Of a DNA stretch of 64,000 bases, positions 11,416 through 33,968 are shown in pieces. The number at the start of each line of letters is the position of its first letter. Position 1 is the first letter of the stretch. This DNA is from Alphaproteobacteria bacterium. GTDB lineage: Bacteria; Pseudomonadota; Alphaproteobacteria; UBA828. The notes under the pieces were generated by a model. That model was not told the origin of the DNA. It worked only from the letters and a program-made list of their open reading frames with translations, and did no database searches. A program made the position numbers and the translations under genes. Location of the stretch: the NCBI GenBank assembly GCA_011523425.1, contig WTGU01000120.1, forward strand, positions 1 to 64,000. Reading direction: 5' to 3'.

Positions 11416-13470
11416 ATGGCATTTCGCTTAGGCGTCGACGTCGGCGGCACCTTCACCGATCTCCTGCTGATCGACGAAACGAGCGGCGGCACCTTCCGGG
11501 CGAAGGTTCCCTCGACTCCGCATGATTCGTCGATCGGCGTGCTCAACGGCATCGAGCGCGTGTGCGAGAACGCCGGCGTCGAGCCCGCCCAGATCACCCA
11601 CGTGATGCACGGCACCACCGTCGCCACGAACACCATCCTGGAGGGCAAGGGCGCCCGCGTCGGCCTCGTGACCACTGAGGGCTACGGGCAGATGCTGCAG
11701 ATCGCACGCTCCTTCGTGCCCGGCATCCTCGCCGGCTGGATCATCTGGCCCAAGCCGGAGCCGCTGGCGCCGCTGGAGCTGACGGTCGAGGCCCGGGAAC
11801 GCTCCAGCGCGCGCGGCGAGGTCGTCCGCGAGCTGAAGGAGGACGACCTGCGCGAGAAGCTCGGCCACCTCAAGGCGCAGGGGATCGAGGCGCTGACCGT
11901 TTGCCTGATGAACGCCTACGCGGGCGGCGAGCACGAGGAGCGGATCCGCGAGATCGCGAACGAGGTGATGCCGGGCGTGCCGGTTTCGATCTCCTCCGAG
12001 GTCCTGCCGGAGATGTACGAGTACGAGCGCGCCATCACCACGGTCGCCAACTCCTACGTGGCGCCGGTGGTGCAGGGCTACGTCGCCAACCTGGAGCGCG
12101 AGCTGGAGCAGCGCAGGATCGACGCCCATCTCCACATCCTGCGCTCGGACGGCGGGCTCGCCTCGGTGGAGGCCAGTCGCAACTCGCCGGTGAACGTGCT
12201 GATGAGTGGGCCTGCCGGCGGCGTCGCCGGGGCGCTCTGGATCGCCAGGCAGGCGGGCTACCAGAACCTGCTCACCCTCGACATGGGTGGCACGTCGACC
12301 GATGTGGCCCTGATCCTCGACGGCGTGCCGCGCAAGCGGCGCGAGACCACGGTGGGCGACGTGACGGTGCGAGCGCCCTCGCTCGACGTCCGCACCGTGG
12401 GTGCGGGCGGCGGCTCGATCGCGCACGTGCCTGAGATCACGGGCGCGCTCCGCGTCGGCCCGCAGAGCGCAGGCGCCGATCCCGGTCCCGCCGCCTACGG
12501 GCAGGGTGGCGATCAGCCGACCGTCACGGATGCCAATGTCGTGCTCGGCTACCTGCCGAGCGATCTGATCGGCGGCGAGATGAAGCTCGACGTGGATGCC
12601 TCCGTCGCCGCGGTGCAGACCGTGGCCACGGCCCTCGGCCTCGACCTCAAGCGGGCTGCGGCCGGGATCATCGACATCGTCAACGAGAACATGTTCGGCG
12701 CGCTCAGGCTGGTCTCGGTGCAGCAGGGCTTCGACCCGCGCGACTTCGCGCTGATCGCGTTCGGCGGGGCCGGGCCGTTGCACGCCAACGCGCTCGCCAG
12801 GCTGATGAACTCGTGGCCCGTCATCATCCCGCCCTCGCCGGGTGTGCTGTGCGCCTACGGCGACGCCACGACGCGGGTCACCGACGAGGCCTCGATGAGC
12901 TTCGTGCGGCGCTTCTCGGAGACCTCGGACGCCGAGGTGCGCGGCATCCTGGACGACCTGGAGGCCCGCGCCCGGCAGGAGCTCGACGCCGAGGGCATCG
13001 GCCGGGACGACCAGTCCGTGCAGTACGAGGTGGACCTGCGCTACCACGGCCAGGGGCTGCAGCTTCCCGTGAGCTTCACCGGGGAGGAGTTCGAGCGCGA
13101 CGGGCTTGGCTGGCTCGCCAGGCAGTTCGACGACGAGCACACCCAGCTCTTCACCTTCGCGCTGGACGCCGAGCACGAGATCGTGACGCTCCGCGCCATC
13201 GTCCGGGGGGCGGAGACCTTCGTCGAGGCCGGCACCGTGCCGGAAGGCGGGCCCGACCCGGCGGAGGCCAAGGTTGCGAGCGGCACGGTTTACGTCGACA
13301 ATCGCGACCAGGAGGCGGCCGTCTACGACCGTGTCAGGCTCAAGGCCGGCAACAGGATCGAGGGGCCGGCGATCGTGACCGAGATGGATTCGACCACGCT
13401 GGTCCTGCCGGGCCATGTCGGCGTGGTCGACGGATACGGCAACATCATCATCAACCCGGTCGGCCACTGA
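11416..13470 (+). CDS. hyuA: Hydantoinase/oxoprolinase family protein, subunit A
   Basis: A 684-residue HyuA-type subunit, which with HyuB forms an ATP-dependent enzyme that opens hydantoin, N-methylhydantoin or 5-oxoproline rings. The actin-like ATP-binding start is GVDVGGTFTDLLLID; MHGTTVATNTILEGKGA, LTLDMGGTSTDVALI and GGAGPLHA follow. Start at 11416 is fixed by GGAAGGAGGAAGC upstream. The C-terminal end (GPAIVTEMDSTTLVLPG) resembles the partial HyuA at the right edge of the window. The gene lies 17 bases before hyuB and downstream of the importer, which suggests that the imported solute is the ring compound. Confidence 0.93.
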   Translation: MAFRLGVDVGGTFTDLLLIDETSGGTFRAKVPSTPHDSSIGVLNGIERVCENAGVEPAQITHVMHGTTVATNTILEGKGARVGLVTTEGYGQMLQIARSFVPGILAGWIIWPKPEPLAPLELTVEARERSSARGEVVRELKEDDLREKLGHLKAQGIEALTVCLMNAYAGGEHEERIREIANEVMPGVPVSISSEVLPEMYEYERAITTVANSYVAPVVQGYVANLERELEQRRIDAHLHILRSDGGLASVEASRNSPVNVLMSGPAGGVAGALWIARQAGYQNLLTLDMGGTSTDVALILDGVPRKRRETTVGDVTVRAPSLDVRTVGAGGGSIAHVPEITGALRVGPQSAGADPGPAAYGQGGDQPTVTDANVVLGYLPSDLIGGEMKLDVDASVAAVQTVATALGLDLKRAAAGIIDIVNENMFGALRLVSVQQGFDPRDFALIAFGGAGPLHANALARLMNSWPVIIPPSPGVLCAYGDATTRVTDEASMSFVRRFSETSDAEVRGILDDLEARARQELDAEGIGRDDQSVQYEVDLRYHGQGLQLPVSFTGEEFERDGLGWLARQFDDEHTQLFTFALDAEHEIVTLRAIVRGAETFVEAGTVPEGGPDPAEAKVASGTVYVDNRDQEAAVYDRVRLKAGNRIEGPAIVTEMDSTTLVLPGHVGVVDGYGNIIINPVGH

Positions 13471-17379: not shown

Positions 17380-18483
17380 CTATTCGACGACGAAGGTGGG
17401 GTTGAAATCGGCAGGCGCGAGGGAGAGGCGGGTGCTGAAGGCATCGAGATTGGCCTGCTCGACGATGTGGATGAAGGGGCCGGCGTGCAGGTGTTCGAGC
17501 TTGCCTTCGAGCAGTCGCACCGCCATCTCGATCCCCATCCGCCCCTGCAGGGCGGGAAAATCGGTGGGCGCGGCGACGATGCGGTCGCGCTTGATGCCGC
17601 GATAGACGGCGTGGGTGAAGTAGTCGGCGAGCACCCGGATCTGCCCGGTGAGGCCGCGCGCGCGGAGCAGGCTCACCGCAGCGCCCGCGGTAACGGCGCT
17701 GCCCACGATGTAGTCGATGTCCGGCCGCTCCTCGAGCGCCTCCTCCACCAGGATGAGCTGGATCTCGCGCCCGGTGTCGCCCCACTTGCGCACCACGATC
17801 TCGACGGCGCTGCCCGCGAGCGCCTCGGTGAATCCTTCCTCCACGAAGTGGGCCCACTGGGATTCACGCGGGCCGGGGAACCACGCGACCTTGACCGGCG
17901 GCGTGCCCGCCGGATGGAGGCCGGCGAGATAGGCGCCGGTCACCTCGCCCATCGTGACCCAGGAGACCGCGGCCTTGGCGCTGATACCGGGGTCGGCGAT
18001 GTCGTTGACCACGGCGATCACGGGAATGCTCTCGCTGATCGCGAGCACCGCCTCCGTCAACCCGTCGAAGCTCACCGCCCCCAGCGCCAGGATGTCCGCC
18101 TCGCGCGCGCAGTCGGTGATCTGGGCGATCTGGCGGGCGAGGTTGGGGTAGCCGCCGGCCTCGACGACGCGGAGCGCGACGCCCAGCCGCTTCGCCTCCT
18201 CGACCATGCCGTAGTTGACGCTCAGCCAGTACGAATCCTTGAGGTGGGGGTAGGACGCGCAGATCCGCCACTTCCGCGAGGCGCTGGAGAGGGGCCGATG
18301 GGTGATGGTCGTCGTCGGGCTGCGAAAGTCGAAGGGCGGGGACCAGACCTCGAGAGACCACGTGGATGGGGTCGTGTCCGCGGCTGCCGGCGCGGCCCCC
18401 TGCGCCAGCCCCGCTACCAGCGCGAGGCCCGCGAGGAGCCCGAGAGCCAGCCGTGACGGGCGCCCCGGTTTCATGCTCGGCAT
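17380..18483 (-). CDS. torT: TorT-like periplasmic TMAO-binding sensor protein
   Basis: A 367-residue periplasmic protein with an N-terminal signal peptide (LALGLLAGLALVAGLAQG, cut near AAADT). It resembles TorT, the periplasmic binding protein that presents trimethylamine N-oxide to the sensor kinase TorS. TorT-like blocks are YPHLKDSYWLSVNYGMVEEA, EAGGYPNLARQIAQITDC and VKVAWFPGPRESQWA. It is divergent from the torS-like gene with only 47 bases between the two starts, so both are probably controlled from one short region. No TMAO reductase genes are nearby; the neighbours are a TMAO importer and demethylase. Confidence 0.88.
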   Translation of the reverse strand: MPSMKPGRPSRLALGLLAGLALVAGLAQGAAPAAADTTPSTWSLEVWSPPFDFRSPTTTITHRPLSSASRKWRICASYPHLKDSYWLSVNYGMVEEAKRLGVALRVVEAGGYPNLARQIAQITDCAREADILALGAVSFDGLTEAVLAISESIPVIAVVNDIADPGISAKAAVSWVTMGEVTGAYLAGLHPAGTPPVKVAWFPGPRESQWAHFVEEGFTEALAGSAVEIVVRKWGDTGREIQLILVEEALEERPDIDYIVGSAVTAGAAVSLLRARGLTGQIRVLADYFTHAVYRGIKRDRIVAAPTDFPALQGRMGIEMAVRLLEGKLEHLHAGPFIHIVEQANLDAFSTRLSLAPADFNPTFVVE

Positions 18484-18530
18484 TCTGCGGCTGATTGCCT
18501 TTCGATTCCAACCGGTGTTCTACTTCCGCG

Positions 18531-21500
18531 ATGTTCGGTCGCTTCGGTATCGCGAGCCGGCTGTTCGCCGCCTTCTTCGGCGTCGCAGCGCTTTCCATCG
18601 CTGCCGGCGTCATCGGCTGGGTGGTCCTGCGCAACGTCGATACGGCGCAGACCACGATCGTCGACCAGGCCATGCCGGCGATCGCCGAGGCGCGGATCAT
18701 CGCCGAGACGTCGTCGCAGATCGCCGCGCACGGCGCGCTCCTGGCCAATGCCGAGAGCGAGGCTGAACGCCAGGCCGAGACCCACACTCTGCGCTCCACC
18801 ACCGATCTGCTCTCGGCCCGCCTGGACGCGCTGGAAGGATACGGCTTTCCCGAGCAGGAGGTTGCCGAGCTGCGCGGCGTGGTCTCGGCGCTGGCGTCCA
18901 ACCTCGATCGGCAGGGAGAGATCGTCGCGGCGCGTATCGGGGTGAGCGCCGTCCTGGCCGCTTCGATTGCGCGCACGCTGGAGGCGGCCGGCGATCTCTC
19001 TGTCCTGTCGGAGACCCTCACCTCCAACGCCGCGTCGGGCGCGACGGTCGTCATCTCCAACCTCTACGAGCTCGCCGAGGATCCGGCGCGCCTTCCGGCC
19101 ACTTTCGATGCCTTCGACCGGCTGGTCGAGGCCGACCTCTTCCTCCTCGAGCGGATGTTCGAGCTCAGGATGCGCGCCTCCGAGCAGGGGCTGCTGTTGA
19201 ACCAGCTCGGCCGCGCGCGCGACACGGGCGAGATCAACTGGATCGAGGAGCGTTACAGCGGCAACCTCCGCATCCTCACGCGCCGCGTGGCCCTGATCGA
19301 CGACCCGATCCGCCGCGAACAGGCGGCGACGCTGGTCGCCGCGCTCTCGTCGGACGGCCCCCCCGGCACGCTCGGCCTCTTCGACCTCCGTCGCGAGGCG
19401 CTTGGCCTCGATGCGGCGCTCGCGGCCCTCGCCGCCGACAACCGGGCGCTGACCGAGACGATGAACGAGCATGTCGCCGCGGTCGTCTCCCGCTCGCAGC
19501 TGATCGCCGCGGGCGCGTCGGAAGCGGCAGACAGTGCCGTCGAGTTCGGCGGGCTCACCGTCCTCCTCCAGATCGTGCTGTTCATCGCCATCGCCGGCGC
19601 CATCGCCTGGCTCTACGTGCACCGCAACCTCGTTCACCGGCTGTCCGCGCTGCACCGGGTGATGCAAAGCCTAGCGGCGGGGCGCATGGACGTGGCTGTG
19701 CCGACGGGCGGTCGCGACGAGCTCTCTGACATGGCCGATACGGTGCGCGTGTTCCGCGACCAGGCGATCGTCAAGCAGCAGTTGGAGGAAGAGCGTGAAC
19801 GGACGAACGCCGAGCTGCGCCAGCACAAGGAGGAGCTGGAAAGGCTCGTCGCCGAGCGCACCGCGCAGCTGACCGAGGCCAACGCCCGGCTCGTGGAGGA
19901 AGTAGAGAACCATGATCGGGCCCGCGCCCGCGCGGAGCAGGCGAGCCGCGCCAAGTCCGAGTTCCTGGCGACGATGAGCCACGAGATCCGCACCCCGATG
20001 AACGGGGTTCTCGGCATGTTGCGGCTGATGGCCGACGGTCCTTTGAACGAGAAGCAGCGGCAGCAGGTCAGGGTGATGCGCTCATCGAGCGAGATCCTGC
20101 TCGGCATCCTCAACGACATCCTCGACTATTCCCGGGTCGAGTCCGGAGAGATCGAGGTGGAGCACGCCGTCTTCGACCTGCACGAGCTGGTCGAGGACAT
20201 CGTGGTGCTCATGCAGGGCCGGGCGCGGGAGAAGAACCTCGCCCTCGAGCTCGCGATCGCAGACGGCGTGCCGACAGCGGTGGCGGGCGATCGGCAGAAG
20301 CTGAGCCAGGTCCTGCTCAACCTGCTGGGCAACGGCATCAAGTTCACCGATCGCGGCTCCGTCACGCTGTCGCTCGCCGACGACGAGGAGCCGGACACCG
20401 TGCGTCTCGCAGTGCGGGACACAGGCCCCGGCATCGCCGAGCAGGACCGCGCCCATCTCTTCGAGCCCTTCTACCAGGCGGCCGCGTCTCGCCGGCACGG
20501 ACAGCAGACCGGCACCGGCCTCGGCCTCGCGATCTCGCGGCGGCTGGTCACGGCGATGGAGGGCCGGATCGGGGTCGAGACGGAGCCTGGGCGGGGAAGC
20601 TGCTTCTCGGTCACACTGCCGCTGCCGCAGGCGGAGGCTGCCATTCAGCCGTCGGCCGCGGAGGCGCTGCCCTACGAGGCGGGCGTTCCCCTCAGCGCGA
20701 TGAGCGTCCTCATCGTCGAGGACAATGTGGTCAACGCGATGGTCGTAGAGGCCTTCGTCACCAGAATGGGCCACGAGCCGCTCGTCGCGTCGACCGCCGA
20801 GGAGGGGCTGGCGCTCCTGGAGAGGCAGTCGTTCGATCTGGTCCTCATGGACATCAGCCTGCCGGGCATCGACGGAATCGAGGCGACGCAGCGCATCCGC
20901 GCACACGCGGATTCCGCGATCCACTCGCTGCCGGTCATTGCGATGTCGGCCCACGTCTTCGAGAGCGAGGTCGCCCAGCATCTTCAATCCGGAATGGATG
21001 CCTTCATCGGCAAGCCCATCGCGCCGGAGGCCCTGGCTCAGACCATCTCGAGCGTCCTCGGCCGTGCGCCCGGCTGGCGCGACCAGGAGGACCGGGGCCG
21101 GGCCGGCGACGGCGACACGTCGATCATCGATCCCGCCGTGCTGGCGCAGGATCGTGCGGCGCTCGGCGCCGAGCGCGGTGTCCTGATGATCGAGACCTTC
21201 GTCGAGACGGCGCCGGTTCAGATCGACGGCATCAGGAGCGCACTCGCCGACGGTCGCGCCGAGCGGGCGGCGGACCTGGCCCATGCGCTGAGGGGCGCGG
21301 CGGGCAGTCTCGGGCTGCGCCGCCTCGCGGACCGTTGCGGCGCGCTGGAAGCCCGCGCCCGCACGCCGGAGGCGGCAGCCCTGGCCGACGAGCTACAGCG
21401 TCTGTTCGAGGAATCGCGGGAGGCGCTGGTGACGCTCTGGTCGGGTCTCGATTCCGGCGCGCGCGACGATCAGGCCGTCACGGCCGGGGTGAACACGTAA
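18531..21500 (+). CDS. torS: TorS-like hybrid sensor histidine kinase
   Basis: A 989-residue membrane phosphorelay kinase. Order: TM1 (about 9-31), a helical periplasmic domain, TM2 (about 341-362), HAMP, coiled coil, kinase domain with phospho-accepting His484 ([12 protein letters not shown]), ATPase domain (GTGLGLAIS), receiver with Asp774 ([12 protein letters not shown]) and a C-terminal HPt domain with His918 ([13 protein letters not shown]). This H-D-H architecture matches TorS, which reads TorT-TMAO and passes phosphate to TorR. I use the ATG at 18531, the first methionine; no strong ribosome site is seen. The 3' end overlaps torR by 31 bases on the opposite strand. Confidence 0.9.
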
Positions 21501-22174
21501 CCCTCGCCGTGCACCGTCACGATGAGCTCGGGCGCGCCCGGGTTCTCCTCGATCTTGCGCCGGAGCCGGCGGACCAGGACGTCGATGGTGCGATCGCTGG
21601 GATCCCAGGACCTGTGGGTGATCAGCGCGAGAAGACGCTCTCGCGAGAGGACCTGGCCGGGATGCTCCGCCAGGGCAGCGAGCAATTCGTGCTCGGCGCG
21701 GGTGAGCTGCACGATCTCGCCCTCCGGCGAGATCAGCTTGCGCGCCGCCGTCGAGAACGTCCAGCCGGCGAAGCGGCGGCCGGGCGAGGGCTCCCGCGGG
21801 CCGTCGCCCGCACGGCGCAAGACGCTCTTGACGCGGGCCAGCAGCTCGCGCGGGTTGAACGGCTTGGTGATGTAGTCGTCGGCGCCGATCTCCAGGCCGA
21901 CGATCCTGTCCACCTCGTCGGTCCGCACCGTGACGAGGATGATCCCGACCCTGCTCTGGGCCCGAAGCTTGCGGGTCAGGTCGAGGCCGTCCTCGCGCGG
22001 CAGGTTGATGTCGAGCAGGATCAGGTCGGCGGCATCCCGCTCCAGGATCCGCCACATGCCGTCGCCGTCCTCCGCCTCGCTCACCCGGTGGCCGGCGGCT
22101 TCCGCGTAGCCGGCGAGCTTGGTACGGGTTACGGCGTCGTCCTCGACCACAACGATGTGGTAGGGATCGGTCAT
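21470..22174 (-). CDS. torR: TorR-like response regulator (OmpR family)
   Basis: A 234-residue OmpR-type regulator: an N-terminal receiver (VVVEDDAVTRTKLAGYAE, phospho-Asp in ILLDINLPREDG, Lys in ITKPFNPREL) and a C-terminal winged helix (LTRAEHELLAALAEHPGQVL, TIDVLVRRLRRKIEENP). It is the expected output of TorS. It is transcribed toward torS, overlapping its last 31 bases, and divergently from the importer gene tmoX across 172 bases. Its likely target is that intergenic region, which would connect TMAO sensing to TMAO uptake. Direct DNA binding is inferred, not shown. Confidence 0.88.
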   Translation of the reverse strand: MTDPYHIVVVEDDAVTRTKLAGYAEAAGHRVSEAEDGDGMWRILERDAADLILLDINLPREDGLDLTRKLRAQSRVGIILVTVRTDEVDRIVGLEIGADDYITKPFNPRELLARVKSVLRRAGDGPREPSPGRRFAGWTFSTAARKLISPEGEIVQLTRAEHELLAALAEHPGQVLSRERLLALITHRSWDPSDRTIDVLVRRLRRKIEENPGAPELIVTVHGEGYVFTPAVTA

Positions 22175-22346
22175 TCCGCGGTCACGCGCGTCGCCTTTGG
22201 CTGATTGTCACATCTTATACCATTTTTTACAGGCCATTTACGGGATGGGTCTGTCTTGTTCACAACGCCTCTCTACGCTGCGGCTTAGCTGCGCGGATTC
22301 CTGCGCAGGCGAGAGACTGCACGCAAGGAACAGTGAGGAGGCGACT
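22175..22346. promoter_or_regulatory. torR-tmoX divergent control region
   Basis: A 172-base region between divergent starts, locally A+T-rich (CTTATACCATTTTTTACAG near 22214-22232), unlike its surroundings. TTGTTCACAA at 22256-22265 matches seven of ten positions of the E. coli tor-box decamer CTGTTCATAT; TTGTCACAT at 22205-22213 is a weaker relative. I could not find a good -35/-10 pair for tmoX, which fits an activator-dependent promoter. GAGGAGG at 22336-22342 is the ribosome site of tmoX. Confidence 0.4.
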
Positions 22347-23315
22347 ATGGTGGGAACGAAGGTGAGGCGGTGGGTGATCGCCCTCGTCGCGGGGGCCGCG
22401 GTCGGCCTTGCGGGCGCCGTGTCCGGCGTGGCGCAGGCGGCGGACTCCGACGACCCGATCAAGATCCCGATCCACAACTGGTCGAGCCAGATCGTGGGTG
22501 CCCATGTCCTGGGCAAGGTGCTCAACGGCCAGGGCTTCGCGACAGAGTTCATCAACGCCGACAGCCAGGTGGTCTACACCTCGATGTGTGAAGGCGATAT
22601 CGACGTCGTTCACGAGGTCTGGCAGGGCGCATTCGGCGTGGCCTTCGAGCAGGTGGTGGCGGAAGGCTGCGTGATCGACGCCGCGACCCATGACGCCAAG
22701 ACCCGCGAGGAGTGGTGGTATCCCTCCTATGTCGAGGAGCAGTGCCCGGGTCTGCCCGACTGGCAGGCGCTGAATGCCTGCGCCGAGCTCTTCGCGACCC
22801 CCGAGACGGCCCCGAAGGGCCGCTTCCTCGGTGGCCCGGTCGACTGGCTGAAGCACGACGCCGAGCGCGTTGAAGGCCTCGGCATGGACTTCGAGGTGGT
22901 GAACGCAGGCTCGGCCGCGGCGATCTGGGCCGAGCTCGCATCGGCGTTCGAGCGCAAGGCCGCCATCGTGCACTTCAACTGGACGCCCAACTTCATCGAG
23001 GCGATCTACGACGGCAAGTTCGTCGAGTTCCCGGAGTATGGCGAGGCCTGCAAGGATGACCCGGCCTGGGGTCTCAACCCCGACATGACCTACGACTGCG
23101 GCAACCCGAAGGACGGCTATCTCAAAATCGGCGTCTGGAACGGTATGCCCGACAAGTGGCCGACGGCCTACGCCATCATCTCAAAGATGAACCTGACCAA
23201 CCTCGACATCGCGGTGATGTCCAAGCTCGTCGACATCGACGGCATGGAGATCGAAGAGGCCGCCGACAAGTGGCTGGCCGACAACGAAGCCAAGTGGATG
23301 GGCTGGGTGAACTAG
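22347..23315 (+). CDS. tmoX: TMAO/glycine-betaine-type ABC transporter substrate-binding protein
   Basis: A 322-residue periplasmic binding protein of the OpuAC (type II betaine-binding) family with a Sec signal peptide (WVIALVAGAAVGLAGAVSG, cut near AQAADS). Trp-rich segments such as INADSQVVYTSMCEGDIDVV, HEVWQGAF and HFNWTPNF are the sort that cage a quaternary or N-oxide group. I call it TmoX because it is followed by a matching ATPase, a fused permease and a demethylase of the Tdm type, and preceded by torTSR. From its own sequence alone glycine betaine, choline or TMAO would all be possible. The start is set by GAGGAGG four bases upstream. Confidence 0.82.
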   Translation: MVGTKVRRWVIALVAGAAVGLAGAVSGVAQAADSDDPIKIPIHNWSSQIVGAHVLGKVLNGQGFATEFINADSQVVYTSMCEGDIDVVHEVWQGAFGVAFEQVVAEGCVIDAATHDAKTREEWWYPSYVEEQCPGLPDWQALNACAELFATPETAPKGRFLGGPVDWLKHDAERVEGLGMDFEVVNAGSAAAIWAELASAFERKAAIVHFNWTPNFIEAIYDGKFVEFPEYGEACKDDPAWGLNPDMTYDCGNPKDGYLKIGVWNGMPDKWPTAYAIISKMNLTNLDIAVMSKLVDIDGMEIEEAADKWLADNEAKWMGWVN

Positions 23316-23332
23316 CCCAAAACCGTTGGCGA

Positions 23333-23379
23333 CGAGGGCGCCGCCTTTCTCCCTGTGGCGGCGCCCTCGCTTTATTTCG
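23333..23379 (+). terminator. Strong hairpin after tmoX (attenuator-like)
   Basis: CGAGGGCGCCGCC (23333-23345) pairs perfectly with GGCGGCGCCCTCG (23357-23369) around an 11-base loop and is followed by CTTTATTTCG. It lies inside the tmoX-tmoW gap of 186 bases. It probably cuts transcription into the ATPase and permease genes, or stabilises tmoX mRNA, so that the binding protein is made in excess. Confidence 0.8.
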
Positions 23380-23501
23380 TGCCCCTGCCGGCCCATAGTA
23401 CCGGTACAAGGCGGTCGCGCCCCGTGCCGCAGGCTCAGGGGCGGCATGTCGCGAGCACGGGGCTGCGGCACGGGTTCCGCTGCAAGCGGGGGAGGCGCCC
23501 T

Positions 23502-24524
23502 TTGGCCGAACCAATTCTCACGTGCAGCGGCGTCTGGAAGCTGTTCGGTCCCAAGCCCCGCTCGTTCATGCAACGGCACGGAGGCGCGCCGGACCTCGCC
23601 ACCATTCTGGAAGAAGGCTACATCCCCGCCGTGCGCGATGCCTCGCTGGAGGTCAATGCCGGCGAGATCCTGGTGATCATGGGGCTCTCGGGCTCGGGCA
23701 AGTCCACGCTCCTGCGCTGCCTCGCCCGCCTGATCGAGCCGACCGCCGGCGCGATCATGTTCGAGGGCCAGGACCTGCTCAGGGCGAGCAACCGGGAGCT
23801 CACGCAGCTCCGCCGGCACAAGATGGGCATGGTGTTCCAGCACTTCGCGCTGCTGCCGCACCGCACCGTGCTGCAGAACGTTGCCTTCCCGCTCGAGGTC
23901 CAGGGTATCGACCGCCGCACGCGGGAGGCTCGTGCCCGGGAGATGATCGAGCTCGTCGGCCTCGAGGGGCGTGAGCGCTACTACCCGCGCGAGCTCTCCG
24001 GCGGCCAGCAGCAGAGGGTCGGGATCGCCCGCTCGCTCGCGGTGGGGCCCGAGCTCTGGTTCCTGGACGAGCCCTTCTCCGCCCTCGACCCGCTCATCCG
24101 CCGCGAGATGCAGAACGAGTTCCTGCGCCTCCAGAACATGCTGCACAAGACGATCCTGTTCATCACCCATGACTTCGACGAGGCCATCAGGCTCGCGGAC
24201 CGGATCATCATCATGAAGGACGGCATCATCGAGCAGTCCGGTACCGCCACGGAGCTCATCGAGAACCCGCTGACCGACTATGTGCGCGAGTTCACCAAGG
24301 ACGTGGCGCGGGATCGCCTGCTCAGGGTAGCGACGGCCATGCGCCCCGCCGCCGCTGGCGAGGCGACGCACGGCGAGGTCAGCGCGGACGCCACGCTCGC
24401 GGAGGTTGCGCCGCAGGTGATCGAGGCGGAGCGCCCGGTGGCGGTGGTCGGCGACAGGGGCGAGATCGTGGGCGTGCTCGACCGCTTCCGCCTGGTCGAC
24501 GCGATGTACGCCGACCGCACCTGA
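23502..24524 (+). CDS. tmoW: TMAO/betaine-type ABC transporter ATP-binding protein
   Basis: A 340-residue ATPase of the ProV/OpuAA type. Walker A GLSGSGKST (residues 61-69), signature LSGGQQQRVGIARS, Walker B ELWFLDEPFSALD and the switch His in FITHDFDEAI are intact. A short C-terminal CBS-like tail (VAVVGDRGEIVGVLDRF) follows. I choose a TTG start at 23502 because GGGGGAGG lies eight bases upstream and the product then begins like its relatives; an upstream ATG at 23355 falls within the tmoX terminator hairpin and is unlikely. Three bases separate it from the permease gene. Confidence 0.87.
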   Translation: MAEPILTCSGVWKLFGPKPRSFMQRHGGAPDLATILEEGYIPAVRDASLEVNAGEILVIMGLSGSGKSTLLRCLARLIEPTAGAIMFEGQDLLRASNRELTQLRRHKMGMVFQHFALLPHRTVLQNVAFPLEVQGIDRRTREARAREMIELVGLEGRERYYPRELSGGQQQRVGIARSLAVGPELWFLDEPFSALDPLIRREMQNEFLRLQNMLHKTILFITHDFDEAIRLADRIIIMKDGIIEQSGTATELIENPLTDYVREFTKDVARDRLLRVATAMRPAAAGEATHGEVSADATLAEVAPQVIEAERPVAVVGDRGEIVGVLDRFRLVDAMYADRT

Positions 24525-24527
24525 GCC

Positions 24528-26528
24528 GTGGCCGCCGAGCGAACCGTCGGGGGATCGATCGGGGCCCCGGTTGCGGCGTCCCGCCGCCTGCTGCGCATGC
24601 CAGGCGCGGTGCCGCTGCTCGTGCTGGTGCCGTTCGTCATTCTGCTGGCGCTCAAGCCCATCCTTCCCGAGGCCGGGATCGTCTGGCCCAAGAGCATCGC
24701 GGTCCCCTTCATCGACTGGATCAACGTCGTCGTCGACGTCTTCCGCAAGCATGAGATATTCGGCGTCTTCACGGTCAAGGACGCGACACGGACGATCGCG
24801 TACGGGATCGAGTGGCCGCTCGACATCATGGAGGGCCTGCTGGCAGGCGGCTTCAAGTCGATCGGCATTCCCGCCATCCCGTGGGTGATGATCGCGGGCC
24901 TGGCCGCGGTCTTCGGCTGGTGGCTGAAGGGCTGGCGGCTGGCACTGCTCGCCGGCGGCTGCATCGTCTACTTCGCGCTCTTCGGCAAGTGGTCGCTGTC
25001 GATGACCACGCTCTCCCTCGTCCTGGTTGCGGCCCCCATCGCGGGCGCGGTCGGCGTGGCGCTCGGGGTCCTCGCGGCCAAGTGGCCGCCCTTCGAGCGC
25101 GTCCTGTGGCCGATCCTCAACGTCATGCAGTCGTTACCGCACTTCTCCTACCTGATCCCGGTGGCGCTCTTCATCGGCGTGTCGCACCGCGCGGGCGCCA
25201 TCGCCACTATCCTCTTCGCCATACCGCCGATGACGCGGCTCACGGTGCTCGGGATCAAGGGCGTGGCGGAGGAAGTGCGCGAGGCCGGCCGTATGGCTGG
25301 CTGCACGCGCTGGCAGATGCTGTTCAAGGTCGAGATTCCGGCGGCGCGCGATTCGCTCATGCTCGGCGTCAACCAGGTCATCATGCAGTGCCTGGCGATG
25401 GTCGTGATCGCCTGCTTCATCGGTGCCAAGGGACTGGGGCAGGACCTCCTGCTCCGTCTTCAGAACCTGAGCCTCGGGCAGGCGCTGGAGAACGGTATTG
25501 CCGTGGTGCTCATGGCCGTGATGCTCGACAGGCTCAGCCGCGCGCTCTCCGAGAAGCAGCCCGAGCGTCGGCCCGAGGGCCCGTTCTGGCGTGTGCATCC
25601 CTATCTCGTGGCGGCTGCCATCGTCATCGTCGCCTCCATCGTCGCGGCGGTGCTGACGCCCTATGCCCAGGAGTTACCCCGGTCCGCCACCATCACGACC
25701 GCGCCGTTCTGGGACGCGGTCGTCAGATTCATCACCATCACGCTCTACGACCCGCTCTCCTTCATCCGCGACGGCCTCCTGATCCACGTGCTGATCCCTC
25801 TGCGCACGGGCTTCCAGTGGATGCCGTGGATCGCGGTTGCGGCGCTGGCCGGCGCCATCGGCTGGCGCGTCGCGGGCCCGCGGCTCGCGGCGACGGTGGC
25901 GGGCTTCGTGAGCTTCATCGCGCTCACCGGTTTTTGGGAGCGCGCCTCGATCACCGCCTACATGGTCTTCTTCGCGCTGCTGCTCTGCGTGATCTTCGGG
26001 CTGCCGCTCGGCATCTGGGCATCCAAGACGGCGCGCCGCACCCGCTTCGTGCAGCTCCTCTGCGACACCTTCCAGACCTTCCCCTCGTTCATCTACCTGA
26101 TCCCGGTGATCATGCTGTTCCGGGTGGGCGACGTGGCGGCGATCACCGCCATCGTGATCTACGCGGCGATCCCCATCGTCCGCTACACCGTCTTCGGCCT
26201 GCGCGGCGTACCCAGCGAGACAATCGAGGCGGCCGTCACCGCAGGCTGCACGCCGCGGCAGATCCTGTGGAAGGTGCGGATGCCGCTCGCCTTTCCCGAG
26301 ATCATGCTCGGGGTCAACCAGACCATCATGTTCGGCCTCTTCATGGTGATCATCGCCGCCTTCATCGGCACCAAGGATCTCGGCCAGGAGATCTTCAGGG
26401 CGCTCACCTTCAATGACGCGGGCAAGGGCCTCGTCATCGGCCTCTGCGTCGCCTTTATCGGGCTGACGGTGGATCGCCTGGTCACGGAGTGGTCGGCGCA
26501 GCGGCGGCGCCAGCTCGGGCTCGCCTGA
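24528..26528 (+). CDS. tmoV: Fused double-domain TMAO/betaine-type ABC permease
   Basis: A 666-residue inner-membrane protein with two consecutive MetI/ProW-type permease domains. The first has the motif VREAGRMAGCTRWQMLFKVE, then PAARDSLMLGVNQVIMQ; the second repeats it as IEAAVTAGCTPRQILWKVRM, then LAFPEIMLGVNQTIMF. Thus a whole permease pair is encoded as one chain, about twice the length of E. coli ProW. About twelve or more membrane segments are expected. GTG start three bases after tmoW. It completes the importer TmoXWV and is followed 23 bases later by the demethylase gene. Confidence 0.85.
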   Translation: MAAERTVGGSIGAPVAASRRLLRMPGAVPLLVLVPFVILLALKPILPEAGIVWPKSIAVPFIDWINVVVDVFRKHEIFGVFTVKDATRTIAYGIEWPLDIMEGLLAGGFKSIGIPAIPWVMIAGLAAVFGWWLKGWRLALLAGGCIVYFALFGKWSLSMTTLSLVLVAAPIAGAVGVALGVLAAKWPPFERVLWPILNVMQSLPHFSYLIPVALFIGVSHRAGAIATILFAIPPMTRLTVLGIKGVAEEVREAGRMAGCTRWQMLFKVEIPAARDSLMLGVNQVIMQCLAMVVIACFIGAKGLGQDLLLRLQNLSLGQALENGIAVVLMAVMLDRLSRALSEKQPERRPEGPFWRVHPYLVAAAIVIVASIVAAVLTPYAQELPRSATITTAPFWDAVVRFITITLYDPLSFIRDGLLIHVLIPLRTGFQWMPWIAVAALAGAIGWRVAGPRLAATVAGFVSFIALTGFWERASITAYMVFFALLLCVIFGLPLGIWASKTARRTRFVQLLCDTFQTFPSFIYLIPVIMLFRVGDVAAITAIVIYAAIPIVRYTVFGLRGVPSETIEAAVTAGCTPRQILWKVRMPLAFPEIMLGVNQTIMFGLFMVIIAAFIGTKDLGQEIFRALTFNDAGKGLVIGLCVAFIGLTVDRLVTEWSAQRRRQLGLA

Positions 26529-26551
26529 GAGGCTGCGGGAAAGGAGGCGTC

Positions 26552-28882
26552 GTGGAGAGAGCGTCGGTCGGGGCGGGGCGCGCGCCGCGCGGCGTACGAC
26601 TGCCGGGTCTGCCCGCCCTGCCGCCGGGCGTGGAGCGCTACGTCGTGCCGGGACGGAGCGCGCGGGCCATCCGGATCGCCGGCGGCGACGTCATCCGCCT
26701 GGTCGACCGGGAGGGCGGGCAGGCCTGCGAGCTGGTTTGCTTGGCGGACGACGGCCGCCATGCCGCCGGCCTGCTGGGCGAGCGTGCCCGCGGTGCGGCC
26801 GCCGGCCTCGTGCGTCTGGTCGCGGACGGTGCCGTGCGCGTGGACCTGGACCTCGCCGGCGTCGCCTCGCTCGATCTCTTCGGGCCGGAGAGCCGAGCCG
26901 GCGAGGCGGAGTCATACACCGCCACGGGCCCCGGCACGGTGATCGTCGCCGCATCCGGCGGGCCGATGGCCGTGGACGCGCAGAATCCGCCGACTCCCGT
27001 CGAGGTCTTCGTCGAGCGGGCCGCCGGCGCGCCTCCGCCCTGCGAGCCAGTTCTGCCCGAGCCGCTGGCGGAGGCGCGGCTCGACCAGCGGATCGAGCGT
27101 TGCACGGCGGCCAGCTACGAGGTGCGCGCCGGCGAGTGGATCCAGATCATCGACGTCGAGGGGCGCCAGTGCTCCGATTTCCAGGCCTTTCACCGCGCGC
27201 GGCTTGATGCGGGCGTCGAGCGCTGCCTCGACGTGACCACGACGCGCACGCTGATGGGCCTCGGCTATCCCCATCCGGGGCAGCGGGCCAACTATCTGGA
27301 CCAGGACTTCGAGGCCCTGGTCGAGGTGGTGCAGGACACCTGCATGCGTCACGACGCCTTCGGCCTCGCCTGCACCGCCAGGTACTACGAGGACCAGGGC
27401 TATCCCGGTCACGCCAACTGCTCGGACAATTTCAACGCTGCCCTTGAGCCTTACCCGATTCAGCCCCGGCGGGGCTGGATGGCGATGAACTTCTTCTACA
27501 ACACCGAGGTCGACGGCCAGAACCTGTTCGTTCTCGACGAGCCGTGGTCGCGCCCCGGCGACTACGTGCTGCTGCGGGCGCTGACCGATCTGGTGTGCGT
27601 CTCGTCCGCCTGCCCGGACGACATCGACGCCGCGAACGGCTGGAACCCCACCGACATGCACGTGCGCGTCTATCCGGCGACGGCCTCGTTCACGCGCGCC
27701 ATCGGCTACCGCAAACAACCGGACGCGGACGCGACCATGACCAAGGAATCCGGCTTCCACGCCCGAACAAGCGGCTGCACGCGCGACTTCGTCGAGTACA
27801 ACGGCTACTGGCTACCCAACAGCTACACCGGCGCGGGCCCCATCGCCGAGTACTGGGCCTGTCGCGAGCGCGTTGCCGCCATCGACCTCTCGCCGCTGCG
27901 GAAGTTCGAGGTGTTGGGTCCAGGGGCGGAGGCTTTGCTGCAGCATTGCCTGACCCGCAACGTGCGCAAGCTCGCGGTGGGGCAGGTCGTCTACACGGCC
28001 ATGTGCTACGACACCGGAACGATGCTCGATGACGGAACCCTGTTCCGTCTGGGCCGCGACAATTTTCGATGGATCGGCGGCTGCGATCAGGGCGGCGACT
28101 GGCTGCGCGAGCAGGCGCGCGCGCTCGACCTCGACGTGTGGGTGCGCTCCTCCACCGACCAGCTCCACAATCTCTCCGTGCAGGGCCCGCTGAGCCGGCA
28201 GGTCATGAGCGGGATCGTCTGGACGCCGCCGGCGCAGGCGACCGTGGAGGAGCTTGGCTGGTTCCGCTTCACCATCGGGCGGCTGGGCGGCTCCGGCGGG
28301 GTGCCGGTGTTGGTCTCGCGTACCGGCTACACCGGCGAGCTCGGCTACGAGGTCTTCTGCCACCCGAACGATTGCGGGGCGGTGTGGGATGCCGTGCAGG
28401 CAGCCGGCGAGCCGCATGGTCTCAGCCCGCTCGGCCTCGAGGCCCTCGACATCCTGCGGATCGAGGCTGGCCTGGTCTTCCCCGGCTTCGAGTTCGACGA
28501 TCAGACCGACCCCTTCGAGGCCGGCATCGGCTTCACCGTGCCGCTCAAGTCGAAGGAGGAGGATTTCATCGGTAAGGAGGCGCTGGTGAGGCGCAAGACC
28601 AGTCCCCAGCGGGTTCTGACGGGCCTCGAGCTGGCCGGCGACGAGGTGGCGGGCCATGGCGAGAGTGTCTTCGTCGGCCGCCACCGTGTGGGTACCGTCA
28701 CCTCCGGCACCCGCTCGCCGATGACGGGCAGGTCCATCGCCCTCTGCCGCATGGCGGTGGAGCATGCGGACCTTGGCACCGCCGTCGAGGTCGGCCGCAT
28801 CGACGGCCAGCAGAAGCGGCTCGAAGCGACGATCGTCCCGGTTCCCTTCTACGATCCCGAGAAGTCACGGGTCCGGATGTAG
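26552..28882 (+). CDS. tdm: TMAO demethylase (DUF1989 + GcvT-like fusion)
   Basis: A 776-residue two-part enzyme resembling Tdm, which splits TMAO into dimethylamine and formaldehyde, the latter caught by tetrahydrofolate. Residues about 190-390 are a DUF1989 domain with candidate metal ligands Cys207, Cys264, His267, Cys274 and Cys290 (GRQCSDF, TCMRHDAFGLAC, HANCSDNF). Residues about 410-770 are a GcvT-type folate domain (AAIDLSPLRKFEVLG, TRTGYTGELGYEVF style blocks). The N-terminal 185 residues look like a degenerate copy of the DUF1989 half (GGDVIRLVDREGGQACEL against GEWIQIIDVEGRQCSDF). GTG start with AAGGAGG four bases upstream. It ends the probable tmoXWV operon. Confidence 0.85.
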   Translation: MERASVGAGRAPRGVRLPGLPALPPGVERYVVPGRSARAIRIAGGDVIRLVDREGGQACELVCLADDGRHAAGLLGERARGAAAGLVRLVADGAVRVDLDLAGVASLDLFGPESRAGEAESYTATGPGTVIVAASGGPMAVDAQNPPTPVEVFVERAAGAPPPCEPVLPEPLAEARLDQRIERCTAASYEVRAGEWIQIIDVEGRQCSDFQAFHRARLDAGVERCLDVTTTRTLMGLGYPHPGQRANYLDQDFEALVEVVQDTCMRHDAFGLACTARYYEDQGYPGHANCSDNFNAALEPYPIQPRRGWMAMNFFYNTEVDGQNLFVLDEPWSRPGDYVLLRALTDLVCVSSACPDDIDAANGWNPTDMHVRVYPATASFTRAIGYRKQPDADATMTKESGFHARTSGCTRDFVEYNGYWLPNSYTGAGPIAEYWACRERVAAIDLSPLRKFEVLGPGAEALLQHCLTRNVRKLAVGQVVYTAMCYDTGTMLDDGTLFRLGRDNFRWIGGCDQGGDWLREQARALDLDVWVRSSTDQLHNLSVQGPLSRQVMSGIVWTPPAQATVEELGWFRFTIGRLGGSGGVPVLVSRTGYTGELGYEVFCHPNDCGAVWDAVQAAGEPHGLSPLGLEALDILRIEAGLVFPGFEFDDQTDPFEAGIGFTVPLKSKEEDFIGKEALVRRKTSPQRVLTGLELAGDEVAGHGESVFVGRHRVGTVTSGTRSPMTGRSIALCRMAVEHADLGTAVEVGRIDGQQKRLEATIVPVPFYDPEKSRVRM

Positions 28883-29079
28883 TCGCCCGGCCGGACTCCC
28901 GAAGGCGAGGGCCGACCGATATCCGCGCGCCGGGAGGCGCGACGCGTTGCCATTTGCGAACCGTCTTCCGGCCGGGCAGAATCGGACGTGAACGGCACAC
29001 TCGGCTCTCGGTCGAGCGGCCAGGGGCTCGGCCCGTGCCAGGGTGTGGTGCGGGCGCGCTAAGAGGGAGGACGACGACC

Positions 29080-30444
29080 ATGATCATCAAACGCCGCGGA
29101 ACACGGAGAGAGGAGGGTGCGCGCAAGCGCTTCCTCGCAAGCCGTCGCAGCTTCATGAAGGCTGCGGGCCTCGGGGGTATCGGCGCCGCCGCCATGTCGA
29201 GCGGTCTGCTCGCCGACATCAACGACGGCGCGCGCGCCGAGGGCGAGCCGATCCCGGTCGGCGGCTGCGTGCCGCTCACCGGCTGGGCTGCCGCTGACGG
29301 CCTCTCGTTCAAGAGCGGTCTGGAGCTCGCCTGCGAGGAGATCAACGCCATGGGCGGCATCCTCGGCCGGCCGCTGTCACCCGTCTTCGAGGACAGCAAG
29401 GAACAGGGCGCCGACAACATCATCCCGGCGATGCAGCGCCTGCTCGACCGCCACGAGGTCCACGCGATCATCAACGGCTACAACACCGGCGCGGTCACGG
29501 CGGAGTACGACACCATTGCCGACGCCGGCGTACCCTACATCCACCACAACACCGATATCGTGCACCACGAGACCGTGGGCAACGATCCGGAGACCTATTA
29601 CAGCATCTTCATGGCCGACCCCGCCGAGTACTGGTACGGCGAGGGCTTCATGAAGTTCATCAGCGACCTCAAGGACTCCGGCAAGTGGGAGGCGCCGAAC
29701 AACAAGGTCGCCATCGTCACCGGCTCGCAGAACTACAGCGTCGTCATCGCCAACGCGATGCGCGATTCGGCCTCCAAGTACGGCTGGGACATCAGCCTCT
29801 ACGAGACCGTGGTGGTGCCGATCTCCGAATGGGGGCCGACGCTGCAAAAGATCCGCAACGACCCGCCGGCAGCCATCGCGATCACCCACTGGGTGCCGCA
29901 GGATCTCGCGCAATTCATGATCCAGTTCGTGCCCAATCCCACCAACAGCCTGGTCTACATGCAGTATGGCCCGCTGCTCGCGGCCTTCCGCGAGATCGGC
30001 AAGGAGGCGACCAACGGGGTGCTCTTCGCCACCGTGGTCGGCGCGCTGCAGGATGACCTCGGCCAGGCGTACTTCCAGCGCTTCAACTCGGCGTTCGGCG
30101 AGAGCGCGAGCCCGCTCACCGGCTCGCAGCCCTACGATTCGTGCCACTACTGGGCGATCGCGTCGGCACTCGCCGGCGGCACGGGCGGCCCCGGCGAGTT
30201 CGAGCAGAACGAGAAGGTCTGCGAACGCATCCGCCGCATGATCTACCGCGGCGTGCAGGGGGCGACGGCGTGGGTGCTGCCCTACCAGGCGGCCCGCACC
30301 TATCCCACCGAGACCCCGGACCCCTCGCTCGGCATGCCCCACCAGTTCCTCCAGGTGCACGACCATATGGAGCAGGGCAAGCTGATCGCGCCGTCACCCT
30401 ACGAGACGGCAGCCTTCCAGGTGCCGCCGTGGATTAGCGCGTAA
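29080..30444 (+). CDS. Branched-chain/amide-type ABC substrate-binding protein (Tat-exported)
   Basis: A 454-residue periplasmic binding protein of the LivJ/amide-urea class (type I fold). The twin-arginine signal SRRSFMKAAGL precedes a short hydrophobic stretch. Features include GGCVPLTGWAAADGLSFK, EINAMGGILGRP, and VYMQYGPLLAAFREIG. GAGGGAGG lies nine bases upstream of the ATG at 29080. It is the first gene of a five-gene importer (two ATPases and two permeases follow). Relatives bind branched-chain amino acids, short amides or urea; this sequence does not settle which. Its place directly after tdm may be chance or may indicate a related nitrogen compound. Confidence 0.87.
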   Translation: MIIKRRGTRREEGARKRFLASRRSFMKAAGLGGIGAAAMSSGLLADINDGARAEGEPIPVGGCVPLTGWAAADGLSFKSGLELACEEINAMGGILGRPLSPVFEDSKEQGADNIIPAMQRLLDRHEVHAIINGYNTGAVTAEYDTIADAGVPYIHHNTDIVHHETVGNDPETYYSIFMADPAEYWYGEGFMKFISDLKDSGKWEAPNNKVAIVTGSQNYSVVIANAMRDSASKYGWDISLYETVVVPISEWGPTLQKIRNDPPAAIAITHWVPQDLAQFMIQFVPNPTNSLVYMQYGPLLAAFREIGKEATNGVLFATVVGALQDDLGQAYFQRFNSAFGESASPLTGSQPYDSCHYWAIASALAGGTGGPGEFEQNEKVCERIRRMIYRGVQGATAWVLPYQAARTYPTETPDPSLGMPHQFLQVHDHMEQGKLIAPSPYETAAFQVPPWISA

Positions 30445-30452
30445 CACCCGTC

Positions 30453-31253
30453 ATGGAGCGGACGGCAACGGAGCCGCTGCTCTCGTGCCAGGGCGTCGAC
30501 AAGTATTTCGGCGCCCTGGCCGCCGTTCGCGACATGACCTTCGATGTCTTTCAGGGCGAGGCGTTGGGCATCGGCGGCCCCAACGGCGCCGGCAAGACGA
30601 CCCTCTTCGACGTCATTTCCGGCCTCAACCCCGCGACCGCCGGCACCATCACGTTCGACGGCAAGACCATCACGCGGGCGACGCCCGACCGCACCTGCCA
30701 ACTCGGCATGGCGCGCACCTTCCAGTTCAACGCCGGCTTTGACACGCTCACGGCGCGTGAGAACACCCTGATCGCGGCCTATTTCGGCCGCCATAACCGG
30801 ATGATTCCCGGCATGAAGTTCGACCGGGAAACCCAGCGGCTGGCCGACGAGGCGATGGCGTTCGTCGGCATGGACGAGGTCGCGCACGAGACCGTGCGGA
30901 CGCTCCCGGTCTATCACCGCAAGCTCCTGATGGTGGCCGGCGCGCTCGCGACCCAGCCGAAGATGCTGCTAATGGACGAGCCGGTCGGCGGCCTCAATCC
31001 GCAGGAGATCGACGAGGTGATGGCGCTCGTCCAGCGGCTAAAGGAGTGCGGCCTCACCATCATGCTCATCGAGCACGTGATGCGCTTCCTGGTGCGCCTC
31101 TCGGACCGGGTGCTGATCATGCATCACGGCGAGAAGATCTTCGAGGGATCGGCGTCCGGCCTCGTCCACGACAAGACGGTGGTCGACGTCTATCTCGGGG
31201 AGGGCTCGTCGCGCCGCCTCCAGCACATTCTTGAGGACCAGCCCGCACCATGA
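30453..31253 (+). CDS. ABC transporter ATP-binding protein, LivG-like
   Basis: A 266-residue ATPase of a branched-chain-amino-acid-type importer. Walker A GPNGAGKTT (residues 42-50), a LivG-style MARTFQFNAGFDTLTAREN block and Walker B MLLMDEPVGGLNPQE are visible. The signature region VYHRKLLMVAGALAT departs from the usual LSGGQ; this degenerate form occurs in some LivG members but is worth noting. Its stop overlaps the start of the LivF-like gene by four bases, indicating coupled translation of the two ATPases. Confidence 0.92.
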   Translation: MERTATEPLLSCQGVDKYFGALAAVRDMTFDVFQGEALGIGGPNGAGKTTLFDVISGLNPATAGTITFDGKTITRATPDRTCQLGMARTFQFNAGFDTLTARENTLIAAYFGRHNRMIPGMKFDRETQRLADEAMAFVGMDEVAHETVRTLPVYHRKLLMVAGALATQPKMLLMDEPVGGLNPQEIDEVMALVQRLKECGLTIMLIEHVMRFLVRLSDRVLIMHHGEKIFEGSASGLVHDKTVVDVYLGEGSSRRLQHILEDQPAP

Positions 31254-31966
31254 GCACGCCGCTGCTGGAGGTAGACTCCCTCGATGCCGGCTATCACGGC
31301 CAGCGCGTGCTGCGGGACGTCTCGTTCGCCGTGCCGGAGGGCGGCCTCATCACCATCATCGGGCCGAACGGGCACGGCAAGACGACGCTGCTGCGCGCCG
31401 TTTCCGGTCTGATCCAGCCCATGGCCGGCGAGATCCGGTTCGACGGCCGCGGGCTCGGCCGGGCGCGGGTGGACCAGATCGTCGCCCTCGGCATCGTCCA
31501 CATTCCGCAGGGCGACATGATCTTCTCGGAGATGACGGTGCGCGACAATCTGCTCATGGGCGCCTACCTGCCGGGGCCCTACCGCCAGATGGAAGCGAGT
31601 CTCAAGGAGGTCTACGCGCTGCTCCCGAGGCTCCAGGAGCGCGAGAGCCAGGTCGCGTCCACGCTCTCGGGCGGCGAGCGGCGGATGCTCGCGATCGGGC
31701 GCGGGATGATGACCGGCGGCCGCATCCTGCTGATCGACGAGCCCTCGCTGGGGCTCGCCCCTATCGCGATCGACACCATCTACGGCCTCATCCGGGCGCT
31801 CAAGGAGGCGGGCCGCACGATCCTGCTGGTGGAAGAGAACGCGAGCCGCGTCCACGATCTCGCAGACCGCATCTATCTGCTCGACCACGGCGAGTTCGTC
31901 TGGCAGGGCACCGCGAGCGAGCTCGACCTCCACGAGGAGATCGTCGAGACCTACCTCGGCGGCTGA
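31250..31966 (+). CDS. ABC transporter ATP-binding protein, LivF-like
   Basis: A 238-residue ATPase, partner of the LivG-like subunit. Walker A is GPNGHGKTT (residues 38-46), the signature is LSGGERRMLAIGRGMM, Walker B is ILLIDEPSLGLAP, and the chain ends with the LivF-type EIVETYLGG. The start overlaps the upstream gene by four bases (ATGA). The two ATPases would form a heterodimer under the two permeases that follow. Confidence 0.94.
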   Translation: MSTPLLEVDSLDAGYHGQRVLRDVSFAVPEGGLITIIGPNGHGKTTLLRAVSGLIQPMAGEIRFDGRGLGRARVDQIVALGIVHIPQGDMIFSEMTVRDNLLMGAYLPGPYRQMEASLKEVYALLPRLQERESQVASTLSGGERRMLAIGRGMMTGGRILLIDEPSLGLAPIAIDTIYGLIRALKEAGRTILLVEENASRVHDLADRIYLLDHGEFVWQGTASELDLHEEIVETYLGG

Positions 31967-31975
31967 GACGGCGCA

Positions 31976-32854
31976 GTGGAAACCTTCGTCCAGATTCTCG
32001 TCAGCGGCCTCACGCTCGGCGCCATGTATGCCGCGAGCACGATTGGCCTCTCCCTCGTCTGGGGCGCGATGGGCGTGCTCAACATGGCGCACGGCGCGCT
32101 GCTCACCATCGGCGGCTATGCGTCCTACTCGGCCGTGATCCAGCTCGGCCTGCCGTGGTACCTCGGCCTGCCGGCGGCGATGGTCGTGAGCTTCGTGGTG
32201 GGCCTCGCCATCTACCACATCATCTTCCGCTTCATGTACCGTCACCCGGCGTTCGAGACCAACGTCATCATCGCCACCGTCGGGCTGGCCATCTTCCTCG
32301 AGCAGGTGACGCTGCTCATCTACGGCGCCTATCCGTTTCCGCAGCCCTTCGCCATCGAGGAGGGTTTTTATGTTTCCAGCGTCTTCGTTCGCTTCCAGAA
32401 CGTGCTGATCCTGGTGCTGGCGGTCGTGACCATGCTGCTGGTCGCGCTGCTGCTCTCGCGCACGCGGGTGGGCCGGGCGATCCGCGCGACCGCGTTGAAT
32501 CGCGAGGCGGCGCAGCTCATGGGGGTCAACGTCGGGCGTGTCTTCGCCCAGGTGATGGGGATTGCCGGCATCGTGGCCGCGATCTCCGGGGTCATGCTGA
32601 GCTCGATCACCACGCTCGCGCCGACCATGGGCTACGACCCCATGCTCAAGGCGTTCATCATCTGCGTGATCGCGGGCCTGGGCAACGTGCCGGGCGCGCT
32701 CATCGCGGCCTTCGTCCTCGGCCTCTTCGAGGCGGTGGTCCAGTTCGTGCTCGGCGTCCGCTTCGGTTTCCCGGCGCTGCTGCTGCTGGTCATCGCCGCC
32801 CTCATCTGGCGCCCCTACGGCGTCTTCGGGCGGCGTGTGGTGCGGCGCGTCTGA
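31976..32854 (+). CDS. ABC transporter permease, LivH-like
   Basis: A 292-residue inner-membrane permease with about eight hydrophobic stretches. LivH-type blocks are ILVSGLTLGAMYAASTIGLS, VLNMAHGALLTIGGYASY, and AAQLMGVNVGRVFAQVMGIA, which is the ATPase-docking loop. It uses a GTG start nine bases after the LivF-like stop. Its last base is shared with the first base of the next gene (TGATG), so it is coupled to the LivM-like permease. Confidence 0.93.
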   Translation: METFVQILVSGLTLGAMYAASTIGLSLVWGAMGVLNMAHGALLTIGGYASYSAVIQLGLPWYLGLPAAMVVSFVVGLAIYHIIFRFMYRHPAFETNVIIATVGLAIFLEQVTLLIYGAYPFPQPFAIEEGFYVSSVFVRFQNVLILVLAVVTMLLVALLLSRTRVGRAIRATALNREAAQLMGVNVGRVFAQVMGIAGIVAAISGVMLSSITTLAPTMGYDPMLKAFIICVIAGLGNVPGALIAAFVLGLFEAVVQFVLGVRFGFPALLLLVIAALIWRPYGVFGRRVVRRV

Positions 32855-33918: not shown

Positions 33919-33968
33919 CGAAAGCCGTCGTTACCGCCCATACCACCTAAGCGATCGCGGAGCGCACC

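Follow-up and report, generated by a model that had tools for sequence, protein, structure and literature searches.

Sensor genes of the locus

The window, by which we mean the entire 64,000-nucleotide stretch of DNA analyzed, is contig C89 of a draft genome of 3.62 Mb (159 contigs, 99.25% complete, ~2% contamination). Homologues of torT (17380–18483, reverse strand), torS (18531–21500, forward strand) and torR (21470–22174, reverse strand) lie where the first-pass annotation placed them, and all three products exceed the NCBI curated (NCBIfam) cut-offs. The likely start of torS is the ATG at 18531, and its product, a hybrid sensor kinase, scores 795 bits with TIGR02956 (cut-off 676.5). It contains the TorS sensor domain (PF21689), HAMP, HisKA, HATPase, receiver and Hpt domains, and thus a full His-Asp-Hpt relay, and TorS motifs including AHALRG are present. 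TorR is an OmpR-family response regulator (NF008034, 286.5 bits; cut-off 275) with the phospho-acceptor motif LLDINLP and a C-terminal RTxDVLxRRLRxK segment that is common to the window and E. coli proteins.

The torT gene, which starts at either 18483 or 18474, is predicted to encode a periplasmic TMAO-binding protein. It scores 375 bits with NF008185 (cut-off 200) and passes TIGR02955 narrowly (312 bits; cut-off 310). There are six aromatic or acidic positions that we take to form the TMAO pocket of Vibrio TorT (D42, Y44, W45, Y71, W140 and Y252), and all six aligned positions are kept in the window TorT. The resulting pattern, DYWYWY, is common to the proteins of the window, E. coli and Vibrio, and every other complete TorT from a torS-linked locus has it too. 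Position 140 is tryptophan in all torS-linked loci, and is phenylalanine, tyrosine or proline in TorT-like substrate-binding proteins (SBPs) without TorS. A tree built with a quick method, and with some long branches, splits the torS-linked from the TorS-less group with SH-aLRT support of 99 on each side, and places the window protein within the TorT clade. We favor a role for this TorT as a sensor rather than as a transport SBP, because of its separate clade, the retained W140, the neighboring torS, and the absence of sugar ABC genes beside torT. The top PDB match of the window TorT is 4yhs, and a sugar-ABC binding protein was considered as an alternative identity; this is ruled out by the tree, W140 and the torS neighbor.

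Several proteins that are named TorT, or matched as such by NF008185, are encoded without TorS. One example is in locus L173 (7902–8972) and another is on contig C62 of the window's own genome (G000; 12434–13405). In Ruegeria sp. TM1040, sugar ABC transporter genes come next after the annotated 'torT'. The sampled TorS-less proteins form their own clade and do not have W140, and 200 bits seems too permissive a cut-off for NF008185.

Importer and demethylase genes

The first-pass annotation described a TmoXWV-like importer and a Tdm-like demethylase directly beside torTSR, and the gene positions together with the family and PDB matches confirm this. The predicted TMAO-binding protein of the ABC importer is encoded by tmoX (22347–23315, forward strand) and is nearest to Ruegeria pomeroyi TmoX (PDB 4xz6; E 1e-116). 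All seven residues listed as TMAO contacts in the R. pomeroyi pocket (PMC8918994) are kept (W55, W102, F106, E131, W177, F220 and W222), and E131 is present in 55 of 55 compared sequences. The next gene, tmoW (23502–24524, forward strand), has an inferred TTG start at 23502 and codes for an ABC ATPase of the ProV/ChoV type (TIGR01186, 337 bits; cut-off 326.6). It is followed by tmoV (24528–26528, forward strand), coding for a fused double permease of the ProW/ChoW type that matches TIGR03416 (372 bits) and ProW (342 bits) over two stretches.

The spacing from tmoW through tdm is tight, and the putative TMAO demethylase gene tdm (26552–28882, forward strand) begins 23 bp past the tmoV stop. Its likely start is a GTG at 26552 preceded by a good ribosome-binding site, AAAGGAGG. 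The product matches NF053776 with 1159 bits (cut-off 1100) over residues 7–762 of 763, and is therefore full length; the nearest solved demethylase is PDB 9q59 (E 1.6e-281). Genes for a branched-chain amino acid/urea-type ABC transporter (a binding protein, two ATPases and permeases) follow tdm on the same strand at 28954–33950, and these may or may not be part of the tdm operon.

Between tmoX and tmoW is a GC-rich stem-loop with a 13 bp stem (23333–23369, forward strand; z -3.5). The stem is kept in four relatives, and the hairpin is followed by CTTTATTT. It is likely to be an attenuator or an mRNA-stability element, probably letting the cell produce more binding protein than ATPase and permease.

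Absence of a TMAO reductase

No PF00384 molybdopterin oxidoreductase is encoded on the window's contig, in agreement with the earlier observation that the window has no reductase gene. The whole genome encodes six PF00384 proteins: one is a formate dehydrogenase above cut-off, one is NuoG-like, and four are far below every curated cut-off. None is a TorA/DorA/BisC-type reductase: with TIGR00509, whose cut-off is 1017 bits, the top score genome-wide is 173.5 bits, and a second search gave 144 bits at best. In a comparable search the Thauera reductases reach about 1011–1017. A torCAD operon elsewhere under TorR control had been named as an observation that would count against the proposal, and a genome-wide search found none. 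A Tor respiration system would call for torC, torA, torD or another TMAO reductase, and neither the window nor the genome encodes an enzyme of the TorA/DorA/BisC type.

Distribution of the arrangement

The window TorT was scanned against one genome per GTDB species and the neighbors of the 80 loci obtained were mapped. In 55 of these, 54 of them distinct, torR adjoins tmoX, and they are distributed among Alphaproteobacteria and Gammaproteobacteria. The carriers include Rhodospirillales-like MAGs, Gammaproteobacteria, and Rhodobacterales of the genera Roseovarius, Paracoccus, Tabrizicola, Gemmobacter, Cypionkella and Rhodobacter. Cultured strains are represented by P. aminophilus JCM 7686 (on plasmid pAMI5), P. 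yeei, Leisingera thetidis and Gemmobacter fulvus, with complete plasmids among them. Five Oceanospirillaceae-type loci have another order, in which tmoXWV and torR are on one strand and tdm, where present, is upstream of tmoX. The arrangement is thus widespread, and the suggestion that it might be unique or rare is not borne out. Among 289 sampled alphaproteobacterial genomes TorS exceeds its cut-off in three, and all three have the torTSR-tmo arrangement. An assembly that is a draft of 159 contigs with ~2% contamination could in principle bring genes together by chance or through metagenome binning; this is refuted by 54 other loci in which the genes stand in that order, the complete plasmids of cultured strains included, and we regard its probability as negligible.

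Of 49 linked genomes, 47 encode Tdm; it is complete or almost complete in 44 of these, and partial or split in three. The 49 include G194, in which a contig edge puts the tmo genes out of sight. A full-length TorA/DorA/BisC-type enzyme is present in ten, and the other 39 are without an intact TorA-type reductase, so that the automatic name 'TMAO reductase system' is misleading for such genomes. Two Thauera genomes with TorTSR, used as controls, have the reverse pattern, with a reductase in both and Tdm in neither.

These data bear on the identity of the ligand. The same circuit could answer to a related osmolyte (glycine betaine, choline or DMSO, for instance), with Tdm being incidental. Choline and betaine transporters are indeed among the TmoX and TmoV relatives, and in the Rhodobacterales tmoV is often followed by an unrelated gene (for example, for a basic amino-acid decarboxylase), with tdm elsewhere in most. 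Nonetheless, this is an unlikely reading, as the window TmoX retains every TMAO-contact residue, the window TorT has the pocket pattern found in TMAO-sensing TorTs, Tdm is present in nearly all of the linked genomes, and in the window tdm is within the operon. We favor TMAO as the ligand of both sensor and importer. We note that in Roseovarius mucosus (L088, 3–1934) an Orn/Lys/Arg decarboxylase-like protein, and not Tdm, is encoded after tmoV.

A predicted four-box TorR promoter

The torC promoter of the Salmonella/E. coli type contains four TorR boxes, with boxes 1, 2 and 4 being CTGTTCATAT and box 3 CCGTTCATCC (PMC9239176). In the E. coli torC sequence the boxes begin at relative positions 0, 10, 31 and 53. 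A matrix and geometry taken from these four E. coli boxes only, and fixed beforehand, were tested on the torR-tmoX intergenic regions against dinucleotide shuffles, and 40 of 51 regions match at p ≤ 0.005 and 48 of 51 at p ≤ 0.05. Of the 7,938 spacings compared, that of E. coli comes out on top (z 7.3), and the opposite strand gave nothing in the spacing test. In addition, 43 of 43 loci have TANNNT exactly 18 nt past the first position of box 4, which is true of no other shift in the range 10 to 29; this putative -10 hexamer is TAAGAT in E. coli and TACGCT in the window. Because their promoters are related by descent, the 49 loci do not all count as independent. The geometry had been set in advance from E. 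coli, and the stronger arguments for a control link come from the existence of two gene orders and from the plasmid loci described below.

A per-box model trained on 44 of the promoters was run over both strands of 2.31 Mb and gives 64 matches above a score of 10, of which 47 are in torR-tmoX regions. The strong matches elsewhere include four before tdm in Oceanospirillaceae and one between torT and tmoW; others are at contig edges, upstream of torR. In the four Oceanospirillaceae genomes tdm is the first gene and the boxes precede it, several kb from torR. Four TorTSR-linked tmoX promoters of plasmid loci outside the training set score 47 to 63, whereas ten tmoX promoters without TorTSR nearby, two of tmoXWV-tdm operons among them, have no boxes and score -14 or less. 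No boxes were found upstream of unlinked tdm genes (L149–L164), and in most Rhodobacterales tdm is elsewhere with no boxes found close to it. From the tdm-upstream matches and the plasmid loci with and without TorTSR, the predicted boxes go with TorTSR and with whichever gene stands first in the TMAO operon. In Gammaproteobacteria bacterium F7 (L100, 4094–5953) there is a four-box TorR site before a gene for a secreted 557-residue protein rather than tmoX.

The window's own copy of the promoter, on the forward strand, is partly degenerate. Putative boxes 1 and 2 (22203–22222; box 1, ATTGTCACAT, at 22204–22213) are poor matches. Box 3, CCATTTACGG (22234–22243), is kept 22 nt ahead of box 4 as in E. 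coli torC, and box 4, TTGTTCACAA (22256–22265), is identical in L068, L069, L071 and L072; the -10 hexamer (22274–22279) is also kept. With the E. coli matrix alone the site is not significant (p = 0.27), and in the close relatives L068, L069 and L071, where boxes 1 and 2 are better kept, the sites are significant (p ≤ 0.01, E. coli matrix). The relatives' model gives the window site a score of 18, the only match above 15 in the 64 kb, and a perfect match to box 4 plus the -10 occurs once in the whole genome, at the torR-tmoX site. In the window, a search upstream of torT and in the gap between it and torS gave no TorR boxes.

One explanation to be weighed is that TorR controls only itself (with torTS) from this site, and that tmoXWV-tdm is merely adjacent and answers to another regulator. 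The intergenic region is common to torR and tmoX, and in R. pomeroyi other regulators, TmaR and TmoR, control TMA/TMAO pathway genes (PMC13390433). However, the boxes are directed toward tmoX and stand as far from the -10 as in E. coli torC, they are before tdm and several kb from torR in the Oceanospirillaceae, and they are missing from tmoX promoters without TorTSR nearby; we consider exclusive self-control quite improbable. The same boxes could additionally serve torR autoregulation.

A proposed circuit for TMAO uptake and demethylation

TorTSR is known as a switch for TMAO respiration. At this locus we think it very probable that a TMAO-sensing TorT-TorS-TorR phosphorelay controls uptake and demethylation through tmoXWV-tdm. 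Periplasmic TMAO would bind TorT, the TorT-TMAO complex would alter the activity of the hybrid kinase TorS (with transfer from His to Asp to the Hpt His), and TorS would phosphorylate TorR. Phosphorylated TorR is predicted to bind the four directly repeated boxes in the torR-tmoX intergenic region and to activate the tmoX promoter. A transcript running from tmoX through the hairpin to tmoW, tmoV and tdm would then provide the TMAO ABC importer and the demethylase, and Tdm would turn TMAO into dimethylamine and formaldehyde. Points against the circuit are the poor boxes 1 and 2 of the window, the stable hairpin that parts tmoX from tmoW, the common descent of the promoters, a possible use of the boxes for torR autoregulation, and the box-free position of tdm elsewhere in most Rhodobacterales. 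The first-pass proposal that TorTSR controls TMAO import and demethylation, and not TMAO respiration, is supported at the sequence level by the E. coli-type four-box promoter before tmoX or a first-gene tdm, and the absence of boxes from the tmoX promoters that have no TorTSR nearby lends the link further support.

Two parts of that proposal need qualification. The catabolism had been called aerobic, and the label has to be qualified since Methylocella silvestris Tdm is reported to be independent of O2 (Zhu et al. 2016, as cited in PMC13390433). The system had also been described as repurposed, which assumes that control of torCAD came first; the TorT tree does not settle the order. Most of the TorTSR loci found serve tmoXWV, in two classes and two gene orders, and for this reason we raise, tentatively and with some doubt, the possibility that TMAO control through a promoter with four TorR boxes is an old and transferable module, which governed import and demethylation before it governed torCAD respiration.

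Relationship to known systems

The window resembles the TorTSR-torCAD system for TMAO respiration of E. coli and Vibrio in its TorT, TorS and TorR families, and that of E. coli in having torR divergent from the target operon, four predicted boxes at 0, 10, 31 and 53, of which boxes 1 and 2 are degenerate in the window, and the -10 at an equal distance. It differs in that the target is an importer and a demethylase in a genome without a reductase gene, and in that torT and torS exchange places relative to torR. The promoter layout common to E. coli torC and alphaproteobacterial tmoX makes the control link directly testable in cultured strains, and TorTSR plus the four boxes provides a metagenome marker for TMAO uptake rather than respiration.

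The importer and demethylase are like those of the R. pomeroyi tmm-tmoXWV-tdm cluster. There, TmaR controls tdm and the genes downstream, and tmm is under both TmoR and TmaR; the TmaR effector is none of the methylated amines of the pathway, and neither TorR nor TorS is mentioned (PMC13390433). In contrast to TmaR and the GntR-type TmoR, the window has a periplasmic sensor-kinase relay, and Tmm and DmmB gave no match in the window's genome in a search that had no positive control and is thus a weak negative. The paper on P. aminophilus methylotrophy (PMC4543880) does not mention torT or torS, though the strain has the module on pAMI5. We found no report of TorTSR control of tmoXWV or tdm in the open-access literature, in which a sensor that detects TMAO before it is taken up as a nutrient is apparently undescribed.

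Salipiger abyssi (L179, 2633–12867) also has a tmoXWV-tdm operon flanked by a two-component system and a separate substrate-binding protein. Unlike in the window, the TorT, TorS and TorR matches are below threshold and there is no four-box promoter, and its binding protein, histidine kinase and response regulator may be another sensor for this operon, one unrelated to TorTSR.
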